Shown: piece after piece, positions 4,380 through 15,938 of the stretch | Position numbering within the stretch: position 1 is the stretch's first letter | How the letters are laid out: the number at the start of each line of letters is the position of its first letter | Origin: Persicimonas caeni | Lineage (GTDB): Bacteria; Myxococcota_A; Bradymonadia; Bradymonadales; Bradymonadaceae | Reading direction: 5' to 3' | Length of the DNA: 64,000 nucleotides | NCBI RefSeq assembly: GCF_006517175.1 | Contig: NZ_CP041186.1 | Coordinates: 2,879,001 to 2,943,000 of the forward strand | Made by a program: the position numbers and the translations under genes | Notes under the pieces: generated by a model | Told to the model about the DNA's origin: nothing | The model's input: the letters and a program-made list of their open reading frames with translations, nothing else | Databases searched by the model: none

Positions 4380-5017
4380 CCCCTTTGCAACTCCCCTTCG
4401 CCCACCTGAACCTTCGCCGTAACCCATTCGGCGAGGTCCCCCCCGAGGAGCGCGGCCGCCTGGCGGTGGTCGACGTCGAGCGCTTTGTCCCGAAGCTCGC
4501 CGCGCCGGGGTTCGTGGTGGAGTTCGTCGGCGATTGCGGGCGGGGCAAGACGACGCACCTGCGTGCGCTGTGGGATCGGTCCCCCAATGCGCCCTTCGTC
4601 AAAGTGCCCGAGAAGGCGCGGGGGTTCGACGTGCCCGACGCGCCGTTGGTCTTTGTCGACGAGGCGCAGTTTCTGGGGCGTTGGCAGCGGCGGCGCACCT
4701 TCCGGGGCGAGCGCTCGTTTGCCGTGGGCACCCACGAGAGTTTGGCGAAGGTGTACGAGCGCGCCGGGCTCGACTGGATAATGATCGAGGTGGGCGGTGT
4801 CGACGCCGAGCGTGTCCGCCAGATGATCGAGCGGCGTTTGGAGTGGGCGCGGCGTGAACCCGGGCCGCTTCCGCAGGTGACAAATGCGGCGATTGCGGCC
4901 ATGCTCGAGCGTCACGGCGATGACCTTCGTGCCATCGAGCACCACCTATACGAAGTTTTTCAGAGACTCGAGGAGATCCGCGATGTCGAAGTGCACCATC
5001 TTGGTCGAGCTGGATGA
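4376..5017 (+). CDS. P-loop ATPase (ExeA/AAA-like), small
   Basis: A 213-residue ATP-binding protein. Walker A is GDCGRGKTT near residues 53-61 and Walker B is LVFVDEAQF near 90-98, with the Asp-Glu pair expected for ATP hydrolysis. The opening (FAHLNLRRNPFGE) resembles the start of ExeA/GspA and TniB-like AAA ATPases, where NPF precedes the nucleotide-binding core. No membrane segment is seen. Start is GTG overlapping the TGA of the upstream kinase; the 3-prime end overlaps the next gene by 35 bp. It presumably acts with the kinases, but the partner is unknown. Confidence 0.72.
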   Translation: MTPLQLPFAHLNLRRNPFGEVPPEERGRLAVVDVERFVPKLAAPGFVVEFVGDCGRGKTTHLRALWDRSPNAPFVKVPEKARGFDVPDAPLVFVDEAQFLGRWQRRRTFRGERSFAVGTHESLAKVYERAGLDWIMIEVGGVDAERVRQMIERRLEWARREPGPLPQVTNAAIAAMLERHGDDLRAIEHHLYEVFQRLEEIRDVEVHHLGRAG

Positions 5018-6071
5018 CCCAACGCGCCAGTACGTCCCGGGCGATTTGGTCAGCGGCGAAGTCCACGTGACCGTCGACAGCGACTGCAAATGCGACGCGC
5101 TGATGGTCGAGCTCGCCTGGGAGACCCACGGCCGCGGCAACCACGCCGAAGGGGTCAGCACGCTGGACATCCCGTTTCAGGGCACCTGGAGCGCCGGCGA
5201 CGAGCACACCTACCCGTTCCGATTCACCGTGCCCAACGGGCCATACACCTACCACGGCCACTACCTGAACGTGGACTGGTACGTGCGCGCCCGAGCCGAT
5301 ATCCCGTGGGCGATCGACCCGAAGGGAAAGGCCGACTTTTTGGTCGGCCCAGGACCGAAGACCGACCCGGCGAGCTATATCAACACCGACGAGTGGCACG
5401 ATGGGCTCGACACGAAGCAGGCGCCGAGCGCAGCCAACGCCGGCTGCCTGTTCTTCTTCGGCATGGTCTTTGGCGGCTTCGGCGTCTTCATGATGATGAT
5501 GATCCTCGCTACGGGAGGCGACGCAGGCGCCAGCGTCATGGCCGCGCTAGGGGGCTTGGTCTTTCTCGCCATCGGCGGCTCGATGATGTTCGCCGCGGTG
5601 CGCAACCCGTTGGCCCAAAAGAAGCTGGGCACCGTCGAGGTCACGCTGCCCGACGAAGTGCTGCACCCGGGCAACAGCCTGCCGGTGACCGTCACACTGG
5701 ACGCGGATGCACGCGACGACATCACCATCGCCACCGCCACGCTCATGTGCCGCGAGCGCGTGGTGTCGGGCAGCGGAACCAACAAGAGCACCCACACCGA
5801 AGATATCTTGGTCGAGCCGCTCGAGCTCGAGGAGACCGCGGGCGCCCCGGGCGGACGCATGGTCCTGGAGGCGCTCCACCGCCTCCCCCAAGACGCCGCC
5901 CCGAGCTTCTACGCCGACGACAACGAGCTCTTGTGGCTCGTCGAGGTCCACGTCGATGTACCCAACTGGCCCGACTACAAGGAGGAGCGCTTCTTCGAGG
6001 TGCGGCCGGGGGTGGGGCGTGGGGCTGGCGAGGAGAAGAAGCCTGCGCTGGAGGCGGGCGCGGTTTGGTAG
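4983..6071 (+). CDS. Arrestin-fold membrane protein
   Basis: A 362-residue protein with two beta-sandwich segments. Residues 1-120 (LVELDDPTRQYVPGDLVSG, with PYTYHGHYLNVDWYV) resemble the N-terminal arrestin-like fold of Spo0M and eukaryotic arrestin-domain proteins. Residues about 210-350 look like a second sandwich (EVLHPGNSLPVTVTL). Between them are two adjacent hydrophobic segments at about 148-200. ATG at 4983 is chosen because residues from it match the arrestin fold start; a more upstream frame extension lacks such similarity. Last gene of the kinase operon, ending inside a perfect palindrome that also serves the convergent glutamate dehydrogenase gene. Confidence 0.62.
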   Translation: MSKCTILVELDDPTRQYVPGDLVSGEVHVTVDSDCKCDALMVELAWETHGRGNHAEGVSTLDIPFQGTWSAGDEHTYPFRFTVPNGPYTYHGHYLNVDWYVRARADIPWAIDPKGKADFLVGPGPKTDPASYINTDEWHDGLDTKQAPSAANAGCLFFFGMVFGGFGVFMMMMILATGGDAGASVMAALGGLVFLAIGGSMMFAAVRNPLAQKKLGTVEVTLPDEVLHPGNSLPVTVTLDADARDDITIATATLMCRERVVSGSGTNKSTHTEDILVEPLELEETAGAPGGRMVLEALHRLPQDAAPSFYADDNELLWLVEVHVDVPNWPDYKEERFFEVRPGVGRGAGEEKKPALEAGAVW

Positions 6072-7340: not shown

Positions 7341-7493
7341 CGTTTGTCCTCCTGCACATTTTCTGCACAAGCTCTCCAAGGTTTCACCACACCCTGAACA
7401 TCACCACTGCAAGGCCGGTGGCCATCCTTCGAAGCGGATGATGGAAGAGCCCATGCTTCGCTTACTCGGCTTCGCTGATTCGGCTTCGATTAG
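7341..7493. promoter_or_regulatory. Divergent intergenic region, gdh / exosortase
   Basis: 153 bp between two divergent start codons, so promoters for both genes must lie here. It contains the AGGAGG ribosome site of the dehydrogenase gene and a TTCGCTGATTCGGCTTCG stretch that resembles the GATTCGCT tandem repeat at 56.0 kb. I cannot place -35/-10 boxes with confidence. Confidence 0.4.
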
Positions 7494-9149
7494 ATGGATA
7501 GGATGCGTAACCACCCTGCACAGAATCACAACCGGCCATGGCTCGTCGGCGCGATCGTCGCGCTCGGCGCGCTCGTGCTGGCCGTCGAGCCGGTGCTGTG
7601 GCTCGTCGAGACGTGGACGACGCCGGCCTACGACAGCCCGGGCGGCTGGATCTTTGCGCTGGTGGCCGGGCTGTTTGGATGGAGCGTGTCGAGCCGACAG
7701 ACCGCACATGCCTTAACTCAGCAAGCCTCGACGCAGCACGCCTGGTGGCTGCTCGCCGGCACGGCCGTGCTTCGGCTGGTCGGCCAGGTGCTGGCCATCA
7801 ACGTGCTCGGGGCGTTGGCGCTGGCGGTCGACGTGTACGCCGTGGGCGTGTTGTGTAGGCTGGGCCGACGCGAGCGGGCCGTGTCGCCGTTTTGGCTGGC
7901 GGTGCTCTTTGCCTTCTCGCTGCCCGTCGAGCGAATCTTCCAACGCGTTATCGGCTACGGTCTGCAGCACGTGTCCGCCGCCGGCTCGTGCAGCCTGCTC
8001 AGCACGGTCTTCGACGACGTGACCTGCGCCGGGGTCAACATCACCCTGGCCGGCCAGCCCGTGCTCGTCGACCTGCCCTGCTCGGGCGCTCGCGGGCTGG
8101 TGCTCTTGTCGGTCTTGTTCTGCGGCTTGGCCGCGCTGGCGCGCCCTAATCTTCGCCAAGCACTCGTCGGCATCGGCCTGGCGGTGGTCTCGGCGCTGGT
8201 GGCCAACTCGGTGCGCATCGCGTCGCTGGCGGTGGGGATCGCGTTTCCCGAGGCGGTCGGCGTCGACGTGATGGCCCAGCCCTGGCACGACATCGCCGGC
8301 CTGGCGGCGTTGGGGTTTGGGGTGATGCCGTTGGTGTGGTGGGCGAACCTCATACGTACGCCTCGCCACCCCTCCCCGAGCGGGCAGGTGCCGAGCATCG
8401 TTTGCGAGGCGGAGGGGGCGTCGAAGGACGAGGAGCCTCTTTCTGCCCCCTCCGACGGCATGGCGATCGCCTTCTTGGCCTGCGCCCTCGCCATCATCTT
8501 CGCCCCGCAAAAGCCCGTCGACGTGGCCCAGCGCCTCGACCCCATCGCCCTGCCCTCGACACTGGGCGGCCACCCCGCCGCGCGCCAGTCGCTGAGCGAC
8601 CTCGAACAAGACTACTTCACCCGCTTTGGCGGCGCGGCCGCCAAGGCGAGCTACGGGCCGCATACGCTGCTGGTGGTGCGCACGAGCGCGCCGCTTCGCC
8701 ACCTGCACGCCCCCGACGAGTGCCTGTCGGGCGCAGGCTTCCGTGTCGAAACCGCCGGTATCAGCGGCCACGCGCTGCCCGGGGCGACCTACCGAGCGAC
8801 CGCCCCCGACGGCAGCGAGTGGCGAGTCGTCGTCACCTACGTCTCCGACTCCGGCGACGTCGCCACGAGCGTGTCGGAGGCCGTGTGGCGCTGGATGCGA
8901 GACACCGACTCGACCTGGACCGCCATCGAGCGCATCCACCCGGCCCACGCGCCCCTGGCCGAAGCCGAAGCGTTCGACCACGCCGTGGCGAGAGCGTTCG
9001 ATTTGAATCGACCTTCTGCACTGCGAGACGGAGCCGATTGGGTTGGTGCCGATCAATCCCCCGGGGCTCGCCCCGGGGCTGCACCGGCGAGAGCTCCGCT
9101 GGGGGCAAGCCCCCGCTCCGCGACATCCCCCAAACCCCTAAATCCCTAA
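7494..9149 (+). CDS. Exosortase fused to EpsI-like domain
   Basis: A membrane transpeptidase-like enzyme of the exosortase/archaeosortase family that processes PEP-CTERM-type proteins. About eight hydrophobic segments lie within residues 17-285. The catalytic triad is visible: Cys196 in VDLPCSGARG, Arg241 in NSVRIA and His265 in PWHDIAG. After another membrane segment (about 322-338) residues 350-510 form an EpsI-like periplasmic domain (HAPDECL, His405-Cys410), so two usually separate proteins are fused. The following gene encodes a protein with a PEP-type sorting tail and lies only 22 bp downstream, suggesting a dedicated enzyme/substrate pair. The start may be ATG 7494 or 7503; neither has a strong ribosome site. 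Confidence 0.88.
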   Translation: MDRMRNHPAQNHNRPWLVGAIVALGALVLAVEPVLWLVETWTTPAYDSPGGWIFALVAGLFGWSVSSRQTAHALTQQASTQHAWWLLAGTAVLRLVGQVLAINVLGALALAVDVYAVGVLCRLGRRERAVSPFWLAVLFAFSLPVERIFQRVIGYGLQHVSAAGSCSLLSTVFDDVTCAGVNITLAGQPVLVDLPCSGARGLVLLSVLFCGLAALARPNLRQALVGIGLAVVSALVANSVRIASLAVGIAFPEAVGVDVMAQPWHDIAGLAALGFGVMPLVWWANLIRTPRHPSPSGQVPSIVCEAEGASKDEEPLSAPSDGMAIAFLACALAIIFAPQKPVDVAQRLDPIALPSTLGGHPAARQSLSDLEQDYFTRFGGAAAKASYGPHTLLVVRTSAPLRHLHAPDECLSGAGFRVETAGISGHALPGATYRATAPDGSEWRVVVTYVSDSGDVATSVSEAVWRWMRDTDSTWTAIERIHPAHAPLAEAEAFDHAVARAFDLNRPSALRDGADWVGADQSPGARPGAAPARAPLGASPRSATSPKPLNP

Positions 9150-9168
9150 ACCCCTAAACCCCTAACAC
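9124..9168. repeat. CCCTAAA telomere-like heptamer run
   Basis: Four to five imperfect heptamers (CCCCTAAA / CCCTAAA) occupy the end of the exosortase gene and the 22-bp gap before the VIT/vWA gene. They sit where a Shine-Dalgarno would be expected, and none is visible. The template strand is G-rich and could form a G-quadruplex. Similar runs lie at 22.27, 56.00, 56.43 and 58.61 kb. Confidence 0.8.
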
Positions 9169-9171
9169 CCC

Positions 9172-11445
9172 ATGAGCATCAAACCTCAGAAAGCAATCGC
9201 CTACGCCCTCGCTGGCATCTTCGGCATCATCTGCTCCATTGTGACGATCGGCATCCTGTTCTCGAATTTCTCGCAGGACGTGACCGACATCTCCAACCGG
9301 GCGGCCGACAACGCCAGGCGCTACGTGCACGACCAGAGCCGGCGCGAGCTCGACCGGCAGCGCACCGACAGCTCGCCGCAAGTCCGCCGCGTCGAGCCGA
9401 CGACTGAGAGGCGGCCGGGGGCGCTCGACCGGTTCCCCGACCACGGCGGCCAGATGGTGGCGACCACGCCCGACGGCCGAAAGCTGGCGCTGCCGACGGT
9501 CAAATCGGACTATAAGGTTGATATCCGCGGGGACCTGGCGACGGTGACCGTCGAGCAGCGCTTCGAGAACCCCGGCGAGGTGCCGCTCAACGCGACGTAC
9601 CAGTTTCCGATGGCCGAGGAGGCGGCGGTCTACGAGATGATCATGCGAGTGGGCGACGAGCGCATCCGCGCCGATATCCAGAAGAAAGAGGAGGCCAAGA
9701 AGACCTTCGAGAAGGCCAAATCGGAGGGCAAGTCGGCGGCGCTCTTGGAGCAGCACCGGCCCAACCTGTTCACCCAACAGGTTGCCAACCTGATGCCGGG
9801 GATGCCGGTCGACGTCACGCTGCGCTATGTGCAGACGGTCGACAAGATCGACGGGCGCTATCAGGTGGTGGTGCCGCTGGTGGTCGGCCCGCGCTTCAAC
9901 CCGGGCGACATGTCGAAGAACTTTCTGGTGGAGTCGGAGGGCGCGGGGAGCTCGAACGACGCGCAGGCCAACGACCTGCCCACCGCCCCGCCGGTCAGCG
10001 AGCTCGACGCGCCCGAGACGATCGACCCCGAGCGCGTCTCGCTGGAGGTCCGCATCGACGGCGGCGTGCCCATCCAGTCGGTCGAGAGCCCCACGCACGT
10101 CCTGGAGGTGAGCGAGCTCAACCCGCGCGACTGGCAGGTGGGCCTGGCCGAAGGGCGCACCATCGCCAACAAGCATTTCGTGCTCGACTACGGCCTCGAG
10201 GGCCAGGAGACCGACGCCGGGGTGCTGTCGTACTGGAACGAGGAGTTCAACGAGGGGTACTTCAGCGTGCTGGTCGAGCCGCCGGCCGAGCCCGCCGACG
10301 AGGATATCGTCAAGCGCGAGATGGTCTTCGTGCTCGACTGCTCCGGCTCGATGCACGGCCAGCCGATGGACGCCTCCAAAGCGTATATGCGCTTTGCGCT
10401 CAAAAACCTGCGGCCCACCGACCACTTTCGCATCATTCGCTTCAGCGACTCGGCCACCGAGTACTCCCGCGAGCCCAAGCTGGCGACCGACGCCAATATC
10501 GAGGAGGCGATCGCGTACGTGAACGACCTGAGCGGCTACGGCGGCACGATGATGACCTCGGGCATCCGACAAGCCCTCGAGGTGCCCGTGCCCGACGACA
10601 CGGTGCGCTTAGTGACCTTTTTGACCGACGGCTATATCGGCAACGAATACGAGATCATCCGCCTGGTGGGCGACAAGCTTGGCAGCGCGAGGCTCTTTGC
10701 CATGGGCGTGGGCAGCGGCGTGAACCGCTTTTTGCTCGACGAGATGGGCAAGATGGGGCGCGGCTTTACCAAGTACCTCGACCCGACGAAGGACGTCGAA
10801 GCTCAGGCCCGCGAGCTGGCCACGCGCCTGCAGACGCCGGTGCTCACCGACATCCGCATCGACTGGGGTGAGCTGGGGCCGCGCGAGCAGACGCCCGAGA
10901 AGATCCCGGATCTGTTCGCCGGCCAATCGGTCAGGGTGATGGGCCGCTACGCGACGCCGGGGACCTACGACATCGAGGTTCAGGGCAAGTCGGGCACCCG
11001 CGAGGTGACCATCCCGCTGCAGGTCGAGCTCGCCGAGGAGCCCTCCGATGGCAAGTCGGTCGAGCTCGTGTGGGCGCAGCGCACCATCGACGAGTACATG
11101 CACACGCTCACCACGCCCAACCGACTGCGGCGCACCGAGCTGACCGACGAGCAGATCAAAGAGATCGTGACCAATATGGGCCTCGACTACTCGCTCGTGA
11201 CCCAATGGACGTCGTTCGTGGCGGTCAGCGAGAAGGTGGTCAACCCGAACCCGGCGGGCGCCGCCGACGGGCAGGTGCCCGAGGCGCAGGCCGACGGCGT
11301 GACCCGCAAAGGCTACGGCCAGCGCGCCTCGTCGACGCCGCAATTCGGCGCGGCGACCGCCCACGGCACGCCCGAGCCGACCACCATCGGCGGGCTACTG
11401 CTGGCGATGCTGGCCGGTGCTTTCGGGCTGCGAAGGAAGGACTAG
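9172..11445 (+). CDS. VIT and vWA domain protein with PEP-type C-terminal sorting signal
   Basis: A 757-residue secreted protein. An N-terminal hydrophobic segment (about 8-30) acts as signal/anchor. A VIT domain spans about 90-240 and a von Willebrand A domain about 380-560, with an intact MIDAS motif DCSGS at 389-393. At the C-terminus TPEPTT (around 733-738) is followed by a hydrophobic stretch and the basic end LRRKD. This is the tripartite architecture of exosortase substrates, and the exosortase gene is directly upstream. I infer cleavage at the PEP-type motif and surface attachment. VIT/vWA proteins are known sortase or exosortase clients in other bacteria. Function may be adhesion or calcium-dependent binding. 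Confidence 0.87.
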   Translation: MSIKPQKAIAYALAGIFGIICSIVTIGILFSNFSQDVTDISNRAADNARRYVHDQSRRELDRQRTDSSPQVRRVEPTTERRPGALDRFPDHGGQMVATTPDGRKLALPTVKSDYKVDIRGDLATVTVEQRFENPGEVPLNATYQFPMAEEAAVYEMIMRVGDERIRADIQKKEEAKKTFEKAKSEGKSAALLEQHRPNLFTQQVANLMPGMPVDVTLRYVQTVDKIDGRYQVVVPLVVGPRFNPGDMSKNFLVESEGAGSSNDAQANDLPTAPPVSELDAPETIDPERVSLEVRIDGGVPIQSVESPTHVLEVSELNPRDWQVGLAEGRTIANKHFVLDYGLEGQETDAGVLSYWNEEFNEGYFSVLVEPPAEPADEDIVKREMVFVLDCSGSMHGQPMDASKAYMRFALKNLRPTDHFRIIRFSDSATEYSREPKLATDANIEEAIAYVNDLSGYGGTMMTSGIRQALEVPVPDDTVRLVTFLTDGYIGNEYEIIRLVGDKLGSARLFAMGVGSGVNRFLLDEMGKMGRGFTKYLDPTKDVEAQARELATRLQTPVLTDIRIDWGELGPREQTPEKIPDLFAGQSVRVMGRYATPGTYDIEVQGKSGTREVTIPLQVELAEEPSDGKSVELVWAQRTIDEYMHTLTTPNRLRRTELTDEQIKEIVTNMGLDYSLVTQWTSFVAVSEKVVNPNPAGAADGQVPEAQADGVTRKGYGQRASSTPQFGAATAHGTPEPTTIGGLLLAMLAGAFGLRRKD

Positions 11446-13952: not shown

Positions 13953-15938
13953 ATGAATGGACGATATCAAGCAGCACTGCTGACCATGCTCTTGTGCCTT
14001 GGCCTGTCGGCCACGGCCTTCGCCCAGGTCCCCGCCACGATGACCTACCACGGCAAGCTGACCGACGGCGCCGGCCAACCGGTCGACACCACCGTCGGGG
14101 CGACCTTCCATATCTACGACGCCGCAACCGGCGGCAGTGAAGTATGGTCAGAAGAGTTTTCCACAGTCGATGTGAACAACGGCAGCTTCACCGTCCAGCT
14201 CGGCGCCAACCAGGCGCTCGACAACGTGTTCGACGGCAGCGCCTACTGGCTCGAGATCTCCGTCGACGGCGAGACGCTCAGCCCCAGGACGCCCATCGAG
14301 TCGGTGCCGTACGCGCTGCGCGCCGACAAGGCCAACAAGGCCGACGACGCGGACACGCTCGGCGGCCAGACCGCCTCTGACATCACCGCGGCCGCCCCCT
14401 CGACTGCCGCCGACCTCGCCTACGACAACACCCAGAGTGGGCTGACCGGCTCGGACGTGCAGGCCGCCCTCGACGAGCTCGCCCAGCTTCGCGCACGGGT
14501 CGACGCGCTCGAGGCGAGCATGCAGGATTCGAGCGGCAACGCGGTGACGCTGGCCGACCTAGACGCGCGAATTGCGGCGAACGCGGGTGATATTTCGACG
14601 AATGCCGGCGACATTTCGTCGCTTCAGACGAACGTGTCGACGAACACGAGCGACATCTCCTCGCTGCAGTCCAGCGTGTCGACGAACACGAGCGATATCT
14701 CCTCGCTCCAAACCAACCTGTCGTCGCTGGAAACCACCGTCTCGGGCAACACGACCGATATCTCCTCGCTGCAGTCCAGCGTGTCGGCCAACGCCACTGA
14801 TATTTCCTCGCTGCAGTCCAGCGTCTCCGGAAACACGAGCGATATTGCGACGCTGCAAACCACCGTGTCGGGCAACTCCAGCGACATCGCCTCGTTGCAG
14901 GCCGACGTGGCGAACAACGGGAACGCAATCTCGACGAATTACTCGACCATCGCCGCCAACCAGACCGACATTGCGGCCAACGCCAACGATATCTCGACCA
15001 ACGCCTCGGCCATCGCGACGAATAGCTCGGCCATCGCCACCAGCCAGACCGATATCGCGGCCAACGCCTCGGCCATCGCGACGAATGGCTCGGCCATCGC
15101 CGCCAACCAGACCGATATCGCGGCCAACGCCAGCGATATCTCGACCAATGCTTCGGCCATTGCGACGAATGGCTCGGCCATCGCCACCAACCAGACCGAT
15201 ATTTCGAACAACGAATCGAATATCCAGGCCAACTTCACCGCCATCAGCGCGCTCGAGACGCTGACTCAGGATATGAGTCGCACCACCATCAACGGTCAGC
15301 CGTCGGTAGCGTTTACCGGGGTGAATGTGCATGTGCGCAACGGATTGGGCGCGACGGATGGTGATACCGGCAATGGCCCGCAGGTCAACGGAGTGGGCAA
15401 TTTGGTCGTGGGGTATGATGAGGCGCGGTCCACGAATAGCGACAAGAGTGGGTCGCACAACGTCGTGATCGGCGACGACCACAACTACACCAGCTACGCC
15501 AGCCTCGTCAGTGGCCTCCGGCACAAAGCTACTGCGAAATACTCCACCGTAATTGGCGGCCTTAATAACCATGCGTCCGGCGACTACGCTTTCATCGGAG
15601 GGGGGTACAACCACAGCGCGTCCGGCACCGCCGCAGTGGTCGTCGGAGGGAACGATAGCAAGGCATTGGGCAGCTCGTCCACGGTCGTGGGAGGTTTCGT
15701 CAACACGGCGCACAGTTCAAATTCCACGGTCAGCGGGGGCGACCATAATAATGCGAACGGCTTTATATCCACAATCAGCGGTGGGGCGTATAACACTACA
15801 TCGGGCCGCGCCTCCTCAGTCAGCGGCGGCAGATCCAACACCGCCTCGGGCGACCACTCCTCGGTCAGTGGCGGCAACGGCCGCAGCGCGGGCGGGCCCT
15901 ACGACTGGCGAGCCGGGGGAATCTGGGAGACCGAGTAA
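13953..15938 (+). CDS. Long secreted coiled-coil protein with YadA-like head repeats
   Basis: 661 residues. Signal peptide about 1-24 (AFA/Q). Residues 30-130 form a beta-rich domain (TYHGKLTDGAG, ESVPYALRADKA) common in secreted structural proteins. Residues about 200-420 are a chain of 7- and 14-residue repeats of the type NTSDISSLQSSVS, then NASAIATNGSAIAANQTDI, typical of a trimeric coiled-coil stalk. Residues about 500-655 consist of GNNxASGxxSSVSGG-like repeats as in the left-handed beta-roll head of YadA-family adhesins. The order is reversed relative to trimeric autotransporters (head at the C-terminus) and no membrane anchor follows. A strong hairpin terminator lies downstream. Confidence 0.75.
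   Translation: MNGRYQAALLTMLLCLGLSATAFAQVPATMTYHGKLTDGAGQPVDTTVGATFHIYDAATGGSEVWSEEFSTVDVNNGSFTVQLGANQALDNVFDGSAYWLEISVDGETLSPRTPIESVPYALRADKANKADDADTLGGQTASDITAAAPSTAADLAYDNTQSGLTGSDVQAALDELAQLRARVDALEASMQDSSGNAVTLADLDARIAANAGDISTNAGDISSLQTNVSTNTSDISSLQSSVSTNTSDISSLQTNLSSLETTVSGNTTDISSLQSSVSANATDISSLQSSVSGNTSDIATLQTTVSGNSSDIASLQADVANNGNAISTNYSTIAANQTDIAANANDISTNASAIATNSSAIATSQTDIAANASAIATNGSAIAANQTDIAANASDISTNASAIATNGSAIATNQTDISNNESNIQANFTAISALETLTQDMSRTTINGQPSVAFTGVNVHVRNGLGATDGDTGNGPQVNGVGNLVVGYDEARSTNSDKSGSHNVVIGDDHNYTSYASLVSGLRHKATAKYSTVIGGLNNHASGDYAFIGGGYNHSASGTAAVVVGGNDSKALGSSSTVVGGFVNTAHSSNSTVSGGDHNNANGFISTISGGAYNTTSGRASSVSGGRSNTASGDHSSVSGGNGRSAGGPYDWRAGGIWETE

Follow-up and report, generated by a model that had tools for sequence, protein, structure and literature searches.

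Most of what is known of exosortases comes from comparative genomics, and they are generally associated with exopolysaccharide and with many substrates. A 64 kb stretch of the Persicimonas caeni genome (NZ_CP041186.1, a single contig of 8,047,206 bases; the whole stretch is hereafter called the window) raises the question of whether an exosortase can be kept for a single protein and, if so, what controls the pair and what it might be for. In this window, an exosortase gene is followed by a gene for a protein with VIT and von Willebrand factor A (vWA) domains and a PEP-CTERM tail, an arrangement that a sequence-only reading had taken as a dedicated one-enzyme, one-substrate system. We favor, with a probability of about 70%, an exosortase system reserved for one protein and controlled by a CreBC-like envelope-stress circuit, in which the enzyme is made together with its one substrate, resembling the inter-alpha-inhibitor heavy chain (ITIH). 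This reading draws on the gene pair, a conserved cassette, co-inheritance, an operator-like repeat, the neighbors of further repeat copies and a genome with a single recognizable substrate.

An exosortase T gene and its PEP-tailed neighbor

The upstream gene, xrtT (7494–9149, + strand), encodes a protein of 551 aa with an N-terminal exosortase membrane domain and a C-terminal EpsI-like domain. Judged by profile matches, this product is a member of exosortase T (XrtT), a family already named by NCBI: it scores 599.5 bits against NF033770 (cut-off 250), with residues 22–504 covering model positions 4–472 of 472, and 82.9 bits against PF09721 (cut-off 25.7), while other exosortase families stay far under their cut-offs (XrtO, 75.5 of 250 bits; XrtD, 56.7 of 400 bits). 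The proposed catalytic triad of Cys196, Arg241 and His265 was found exactly where the sequence-only reading had placed it (codons 8079–8081, 8214–8216 and 8286–8288, all + strand), and each residue is invariant in 38/38 XrtT sequences. Two more cysteines lie near the active-site cysteine in sequence, Cys166 (codon 7989–7991) and Cys178 (8025–8027); they are conserved in 97% of the 38 sequences and possibly form a disulfide.

The same reading had called the C-terminal half EpsI-like, a label that is only indirectly supported. The motif RHLHAPDEC (residues 402–410; 8697–8723, + strand) is conserved across the 38 XrtT sequences, with R402, H403, L404, H405, P407, C410 and L411 invariant within RHLHxPxxCL (residues 402–411), and alignments to the profiles of two fused exosortases, XrtD and XrtO, extend as far as residues 428 and 420, into the motif region. 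Against this, no EpsI model (the family is TIGR02914; PMC1569441) appeared among the NCBIfam or Pfam matches of XrtT at E ≤ 1, where Pfam gave PF09721 only. The predicted XrtT structure has a mean pLDDT of 85.0; Foldseek found no match to it in the PDB at E ≤ 0.001, and an XrtT profile found none among PDB sequences at E ≤ 1. For residues 341–504, VIA-align returned PsbP, MTC28, SciW/EagT6, LpqN and DcrB, which we take to be related folds, at Z of 6.9–8.0; this is the noise level of the tool, and neither the scores nor the presumed relationship are used for any fold claim.

The downstream gene (9172–11445, + strand, 757 aa) starts 22 bp after the end of xrtT, head to tail on the same strand. 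Its product contains a VIT domain (residues 113–219; 9508–9828, + strand; PF08487, 112.3 bits) and a vWA domain (residues 381–552; 10312–10827, + strand; VWA_3, 61.1 bits) whose metal site, formed by D389-S391-S393, T459 and D486, is complete and is invariant in 35/35 aligned homologues. An AlphaFold model of the protein (pLDDT 78.9) matches inter-alpha-inhibitor heavy chain 1 (6fpy_B) at E 1.3e-38 over 665 alignment columns, and the modeled fold is thus like that of an inter-alpha-inhibitor heavy chain.

The PEP-CTERM tail, TPEPTTIGGLLLAMLAGAFGLRRKD, occupies residues 733–757 (11368–11442, + strand) and scores 23.2 bits against TIGR02595 (cut-off 16); against PF07589 it reaches 16.2 bits in a protein scan (cut-off 20.7) and 22.4 bits in a genome search. 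In the model, a low-confidence or disordered linker (residues 703–735) is followed by a helix (736–756), which puts the PEP motif (734–736) at the junction of the two, and the protein ends in LRRKD, so that a PEP motif, a hydrophobic helix and a basic end are all present. That the tail is not a chance resemblance is argued by Glu735, invariant in 35/35 aligned homologues, and by the motif itself, which reads PEP in 36/38 relatives (PEA in L066 and HEP in L080). The earlier description of a PEP-tailed VIT/vWA protein 22 bp downstream was therefore accurate both in spacing and in the nature of the tail. A second VIT/vWA protein in the same genome (G000:C1:3475797-3477404; L219) lies far from any exosortase and shows no PEP tail in the part read, which stops short of its end. 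A survey of 57 genomes of the class of P. caeni found no PEP tail on the VIT/vWA proteins that were read from XrtT-less genomes.

Genome-wide counts point to a single pair. PF09721 exceeds its cut-off once in the P. caeni genome, at xrtT, and PF07589 exceeds its cut-off once, at the VIT/vWA tail (16 matches at E ≤ 10), so that no further tail over the cut-off lies in the window, in line with what had been claimed, and the dozens of tails elsewhere that would have spoken against a dedicated pair did not turn up. One exosortase and one PEP-CTERM protein over cut-off support the proposed one-enzyme, one-substrate system, although that proposal was incomplete, having overlooked the named family, a two-component system and an operator. 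The genome also holds 50 MYXO-CTERM matches over cut-off among the 67 listed, which indicates that a bulk cysteine-based display route is present and that a separate exosortase is kept nonetheless.

A conserved cassette with an operator-like repeat

A scan of 84,980 species genomes yielded 40 XrtT loci, mostly from Alphaproteobacteria but also from Gammaproteobacteria, Nitrospinota and, in two cases (L060 and L094), the window's own class; cultured hosts include Sinimarinibacterium, Stappia, Ruegeria and Roseibium. A VIT/vWA gene was present in 37/40 loci, in 36 as the next gene after XrtT and in L060 at a distance of 5.5 kb, with the three loci lacking a match (L083, L091 and L093, on truncated or short contigs) kept in the denominators. 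An OmpR-type regulator and a histidine kinase accompanied XrtT in 33/40 loci. Clustering of the flanking open reading frames (ORFs) from 42 loci recovered the same four genes (XrtT, 42; VIT/vWA, 39; kinase, 34; regulator, 34), with the next cluster reaching only 7. Pairwise distances within the cassette were correlated, at r = 0.835 for XrtT and VIT/vWA (n = 37; permutation maximum 0.227), 0.757 for XrtT and regulator (n = 33) and 0.778 for XrtT and kinase (n = 30), with permutation maxima of 0.18–0.23 across the cassette, and these correlations partly reflect the shared ancestry of the host organisms.

The XrtT-linked VIT/vWA proteins form one clade with support of 100 and one long-branch intruder. 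This intruder (L152; G003:C605) is an interrupted gene with no PEP tail, in a genome with no XrtT match, and is possibly a decaying remnant. Two class relatives have a large ORF after the cassette kinase (L045 2060–4075 and L047 269–2605), and the L045 copy, which was tested, had no NCBIfam match.

The wider survey also bears on whether XrtT might serve a set of substrates whose PEP-type tails have diverged beyond what PF07589 detects, the VIT/vWA protein being only the best recognized of them. The profile is indeed insensitive: at E ≤ 0.05 it fails even on the VIT/vWA tail in the majority of XrtT genomes, so substrate counts are a lower bound and extra substrates may be missed. Moreover, in G064, a genome with a single exosortase, two more proteins end in PEP- or PVP-type tails. 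However, no PEP-type tail besides that of the VIT/vWA protein was found in 23 of the 27 single-exosortase genomes (among 38 with XrtT), and the extra tails examined in G079, G080 and G089 were of the VPLPA/VPVPA type (one or two examined per genome, here and in G064), as were the extra matches read in genomes with a second exosortase. In P. caeni itself, sub-threshold PF07589 matches with a readable C-terminus mostly contain cysteine and resemble MYXO-CTERM rather than PEP tails. Together with the adjacency of XrtT and VIT/vWA in 36/40 loci and their co-inheritance, this makes a multi-substrate enzyme distinctly improbable, and we retain the dedicated pair.

Upstream of the XrtT start codon in the window lies a direct repeat, CTGCACATTTTCTGCACA (7352–7369, + strand), with the core TGCAC-N6-TGCAC at 7353–7368. 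When XrtT upstream regions were searched de novo for spaced direct repeats, with no preset motif, this pattern emerged in 20/39 regions versus 0.1 expected. Over 38 loci (714,979 bases), 23 exact copies were found, of which 22, each at a different locus, fell within the 500 bp that surround the XrtT start; random matching is rejected, as these 22 lie within 2.7% of the sequence. Several of the repeat-bearing loci are close relatives, but the columns flanking the repeat are low in information, which suggests a footprint and not general similarity. The distance to the called XrtT start is mostly 54 to 114 bp, and 141 bp in the window. Allowing at most one mismatch, a scan of the 64 kb window returned only the exact copy at 7353–7368 versus 4.03 matches expected by chance, so it is the position and conservation of the repeat, not its count, that constitute evidence. 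The plain cre tag, TTCAC-N6-TTCAC, was tried and rejected, having no site with fewer than two mismatches upstream of XrtT. A stricter form of the XrtT pattern gave 45 matches in 50 genomes (9 for a reversed control) and six in P. caeni (0 for the control), and stood right at XrtT in 19/39 XrtT genomes.

A candidate envelope-stress circuit

No regulator or kinase of the XrtT-linked families was found beside the window pair in a search of the first 25 kb of the window. The P. caeni genome does encode one full-length kinase of this family (623.3 bits; next best, 145.6 bits), which together with an adjoining regulator occupies G000:C1:2810326-2812622, outside the window and 74 kb before xrtT.

Copies of the operator-like repeat elsewhere suggest what such a regulator might control. 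One copy in P. caeni lies 110 bp before the gene for a 1,909-aa alpha-2-macroglobulin (A2M), which is followed by a transglycosylase-type penicillin-binding protein (PBP; G000:C1:2721500-2728400, L260); another precedes the gene for a cadherin/TSP3-type protein, with a MYXO-CTERM match at the end of its reading frame, and one lies near an ORF of no assigned identity. The regulator, kinase, operator, A2M and PBP follow one another directly in G002, which lacks XrtT. Other genomes have the operator before A2M (G009), creD (G081; PF06123, 405.8 bits), bifunctional PBPs (G078 and G089) or an M23 peptidase (G087), while further matches (G077, G069, G088 and others) adjoin no clear envelope gene. 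These neighbors were scanned with Pfam only where their ORFs looked informative, and some matches outside XrtT loci are probably chance. Because the operator also precedes the A2M–PBP operon in P. caeni, the VIT/vWA substrate probably has its role when the cell responds to damage of its wall or envelope; the xrtT operator appears to be shared with cell-wall repair genes, and the display system may be part of that response.

From these elements we infer a scheme that extends to regulator binding, the inducing signal, cleavage, the acceptor and surface location. An envelope signal would activate the histidine kinase and the OmpR-family regulator encoded 74 kb upstream, and the regulator would bind the repeat at 7353–7368 and turn on xrtT jointly with the VIT/vWA gene. 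After export, the C-terminal helix would keep the VIT/vWA protein in the inner membrane, where XrtT, through Cys196, Arg241 and His265, would cut at the PEP motif between the disordered linker and the helix. XrtT would then hand the protein over, probably to an acceptor by which it becomes anchored at the surface, and the EpsI-like domain, with its invariant His403, His405 and Cys410, may take part in recognition or transfer. The transfer step is included because exosortases, according to the parts consulted of PMC11980579, appear to leave their substrates membrane-anchored and may act as transpeptidases. The product would then act at the cell surface.

Several observations, along with the insensitive tail profile and the extra tails of G064 described above, weigh against this scheme. 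The P. caeni kinase and regulator are unlinked to XrtT, and no good operator copy was found upstream of that regulator. Sixteen of the 38 loci have no exact operator copy near XrtT, and the 10 kb of L055 include a VIT/vWA gene but neither a kinase nor a regulator. Members of the kinase family are encoded in XrtT-less genomes as well, at full or almost full length in G002, G021, G046 and G047 and in pieces in G009, and P. caeni operator copies also precede a sigma-54 activator and a sugar-lactone oxidase, neither with an obvious envelope role.

The distance of 74 kb would suit an XrtT–substrate pair that is constitutive or differently regulated here, the repeat being a relic of an ancestor with a linked regulator and kinase. 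So would the patchy occurrence of XrtT in the class (over cut-off in 3/57 genomes, plus one split copy; a partial exosortase of 98.4 bits in G007, L048, was left out for its poor alignment to XrtT), a pattern that transfer or decay of the unit would produce. Yet the window copy of the operator is exact, the full-length cognate kinase and its regulator persist in the genome, and the same operator stands before the A2M–PBP operon, so that the circuit looks alive; we consider the relic explanation unlikely and keep the regulated, stress-linked system as our preferred reading.

A more specific version, which we advance only tentatively, is that a CreBC-like envelope-damage regulon deploys through one operator two bacterial counterparts of animal plasma proteins, A2M (with the PBP) and the ITIH-like VIT/vWA protein with its private exosortase, forming an inducible envelope shield or repair patch. 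If so, XrtT would differ from the usual exosortase in being linked to wall stress and not to exopolysaccharide.

Elsewhere in the window, an arrestin-like protein (4884–6071, + strand; PF00339, 53.0 bits), Spo0M-like and with a central hydrophobic segment, is encoded two genes before xrtT, and an ORF at 13953–15938 (+ strand) encodes long coiled-coil-like repeats, with adhesin-like repeats near the protein end and a weak UspA1_rep match.

The XrtT unit is a small system, with one enzyme, one substrate, an operator and a class of inducer (wall damage) that are both predicted, and hosts in culture. It would allow direct tests of exosortase cleavage, of the transfer product and of what the EpsI-like domain does. 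It also connects protein sorting to peptidoglycan stress in a specific and falsifiable way.

Comparison with known systems

The window enzyme shares its active-site residues and C-terminal domain with the NCBIfam exosortase T model, NF033770, along a full-length match, and NCBIfam appears to give this family a name only; the account given here of its substrate, regulators and operator comes from sequence. Searches of the open-access literature found no publication naming XrtT for this enzyme, and none joining an exosortase with a VIT domain or an exosortase with von Willebrand factor and a two-component system. XrtN (TIGR04476) is another exosortase that has been named, as has the model for its target (TIGR04477, sorted_by_XrtN), and this target is a VIT-domain protein. 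The two exosortases nevertheless differ, as the window enzyme scores 30.7 bits against the XrtN cut-off of 200, and TIGR04477 does not match the window gene and has no match over cut-off in the P. caeni genome.

The proteobacterial dedicated sortase system (TIGR03784/03785/03787/03788) also pairs a VIT/vWA target with a sorting enzyme, with a two-component system nearby in about half of the regions read, but it uses a sortase and an LPxTA/LPxTG-like tail whereas the XrtT cassette uses an exosortase and a PEP tail. These common gene roles (a VIT/vWA target of the TIGR03788 superfamily, an enzyme, a regulator and a kinase) could mean that the XrtT cassette descends directly from the sortase system, an exosortase having replaced the sortase. 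The trees and scores say otherwise. The VIT/vWA proteins linked to sortases group in a clade of their own (support 100), separate from the XrtT-linked clade; the XrtT-linked kinases and regulators of relatives fall far under the TIGR03785 and TIGR03787 cut-offs and so belong to other subfamilies; and 20 sortase regions hold a single operator copy, which is not beside the VIT gene. Direct descent is thus already disfavored, and we give it very little credence. In P. caeni, none of 76 TIGR03785 matches reaches the cut-off of 612.2 bits, and the window VIT/vWA protein, at 486.1 bits under the TIGR03788 cut-off of 551.65 and with a PEP tail, falls outside the definition of a dedicated-sortase target. 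By these comparisons of sequence families, the XrtT cassette parallels the dedicated LPXTG sortase cassette and is no member of that system.

Such parallels have a precedent in one VIT/vWA family with three alternative sorting tails (PEP-CTERM, GlyGly-CTERM and LPXTG), printed in 2011 (PMC3237569, consulted in part). The same source describes a PEP-CTERM/vault-like protein of Verrucomicrobium spinosum, of the same PEP-tailed VIT/vWA kind, with no regulator or operator described in the sections consulted. The proposed control resembles CreBC/BlrAB, whose tag, TTCACN6TTCAC, lies at about −80 to −65 before creD in Stenotrophomonas (PMC4689548, likewise consulted in part). This tag and the XrtT repeat have the same layout of two 5-bp direct half-sites 6 bp apart, and the half-sites, TTCAC and TGCAC, differ by one base. 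In three relatives, XrtT-linked kinases score best against CreC (up to 191.1 of 356 bits) and regulators against CreB (up to 230.1 of 273 bits), all under the cut-offs; the P. caeni pair itself was scanned with Pfam. Within the consulted sections of that source xrtT is not mentioned as a CreBC target, while in G081 creD itself bears the XrtT-type repeat. As far as our literature searches reach, the conserved XrtT cassette, its operator and its link to A2M, PBP and creD are new.

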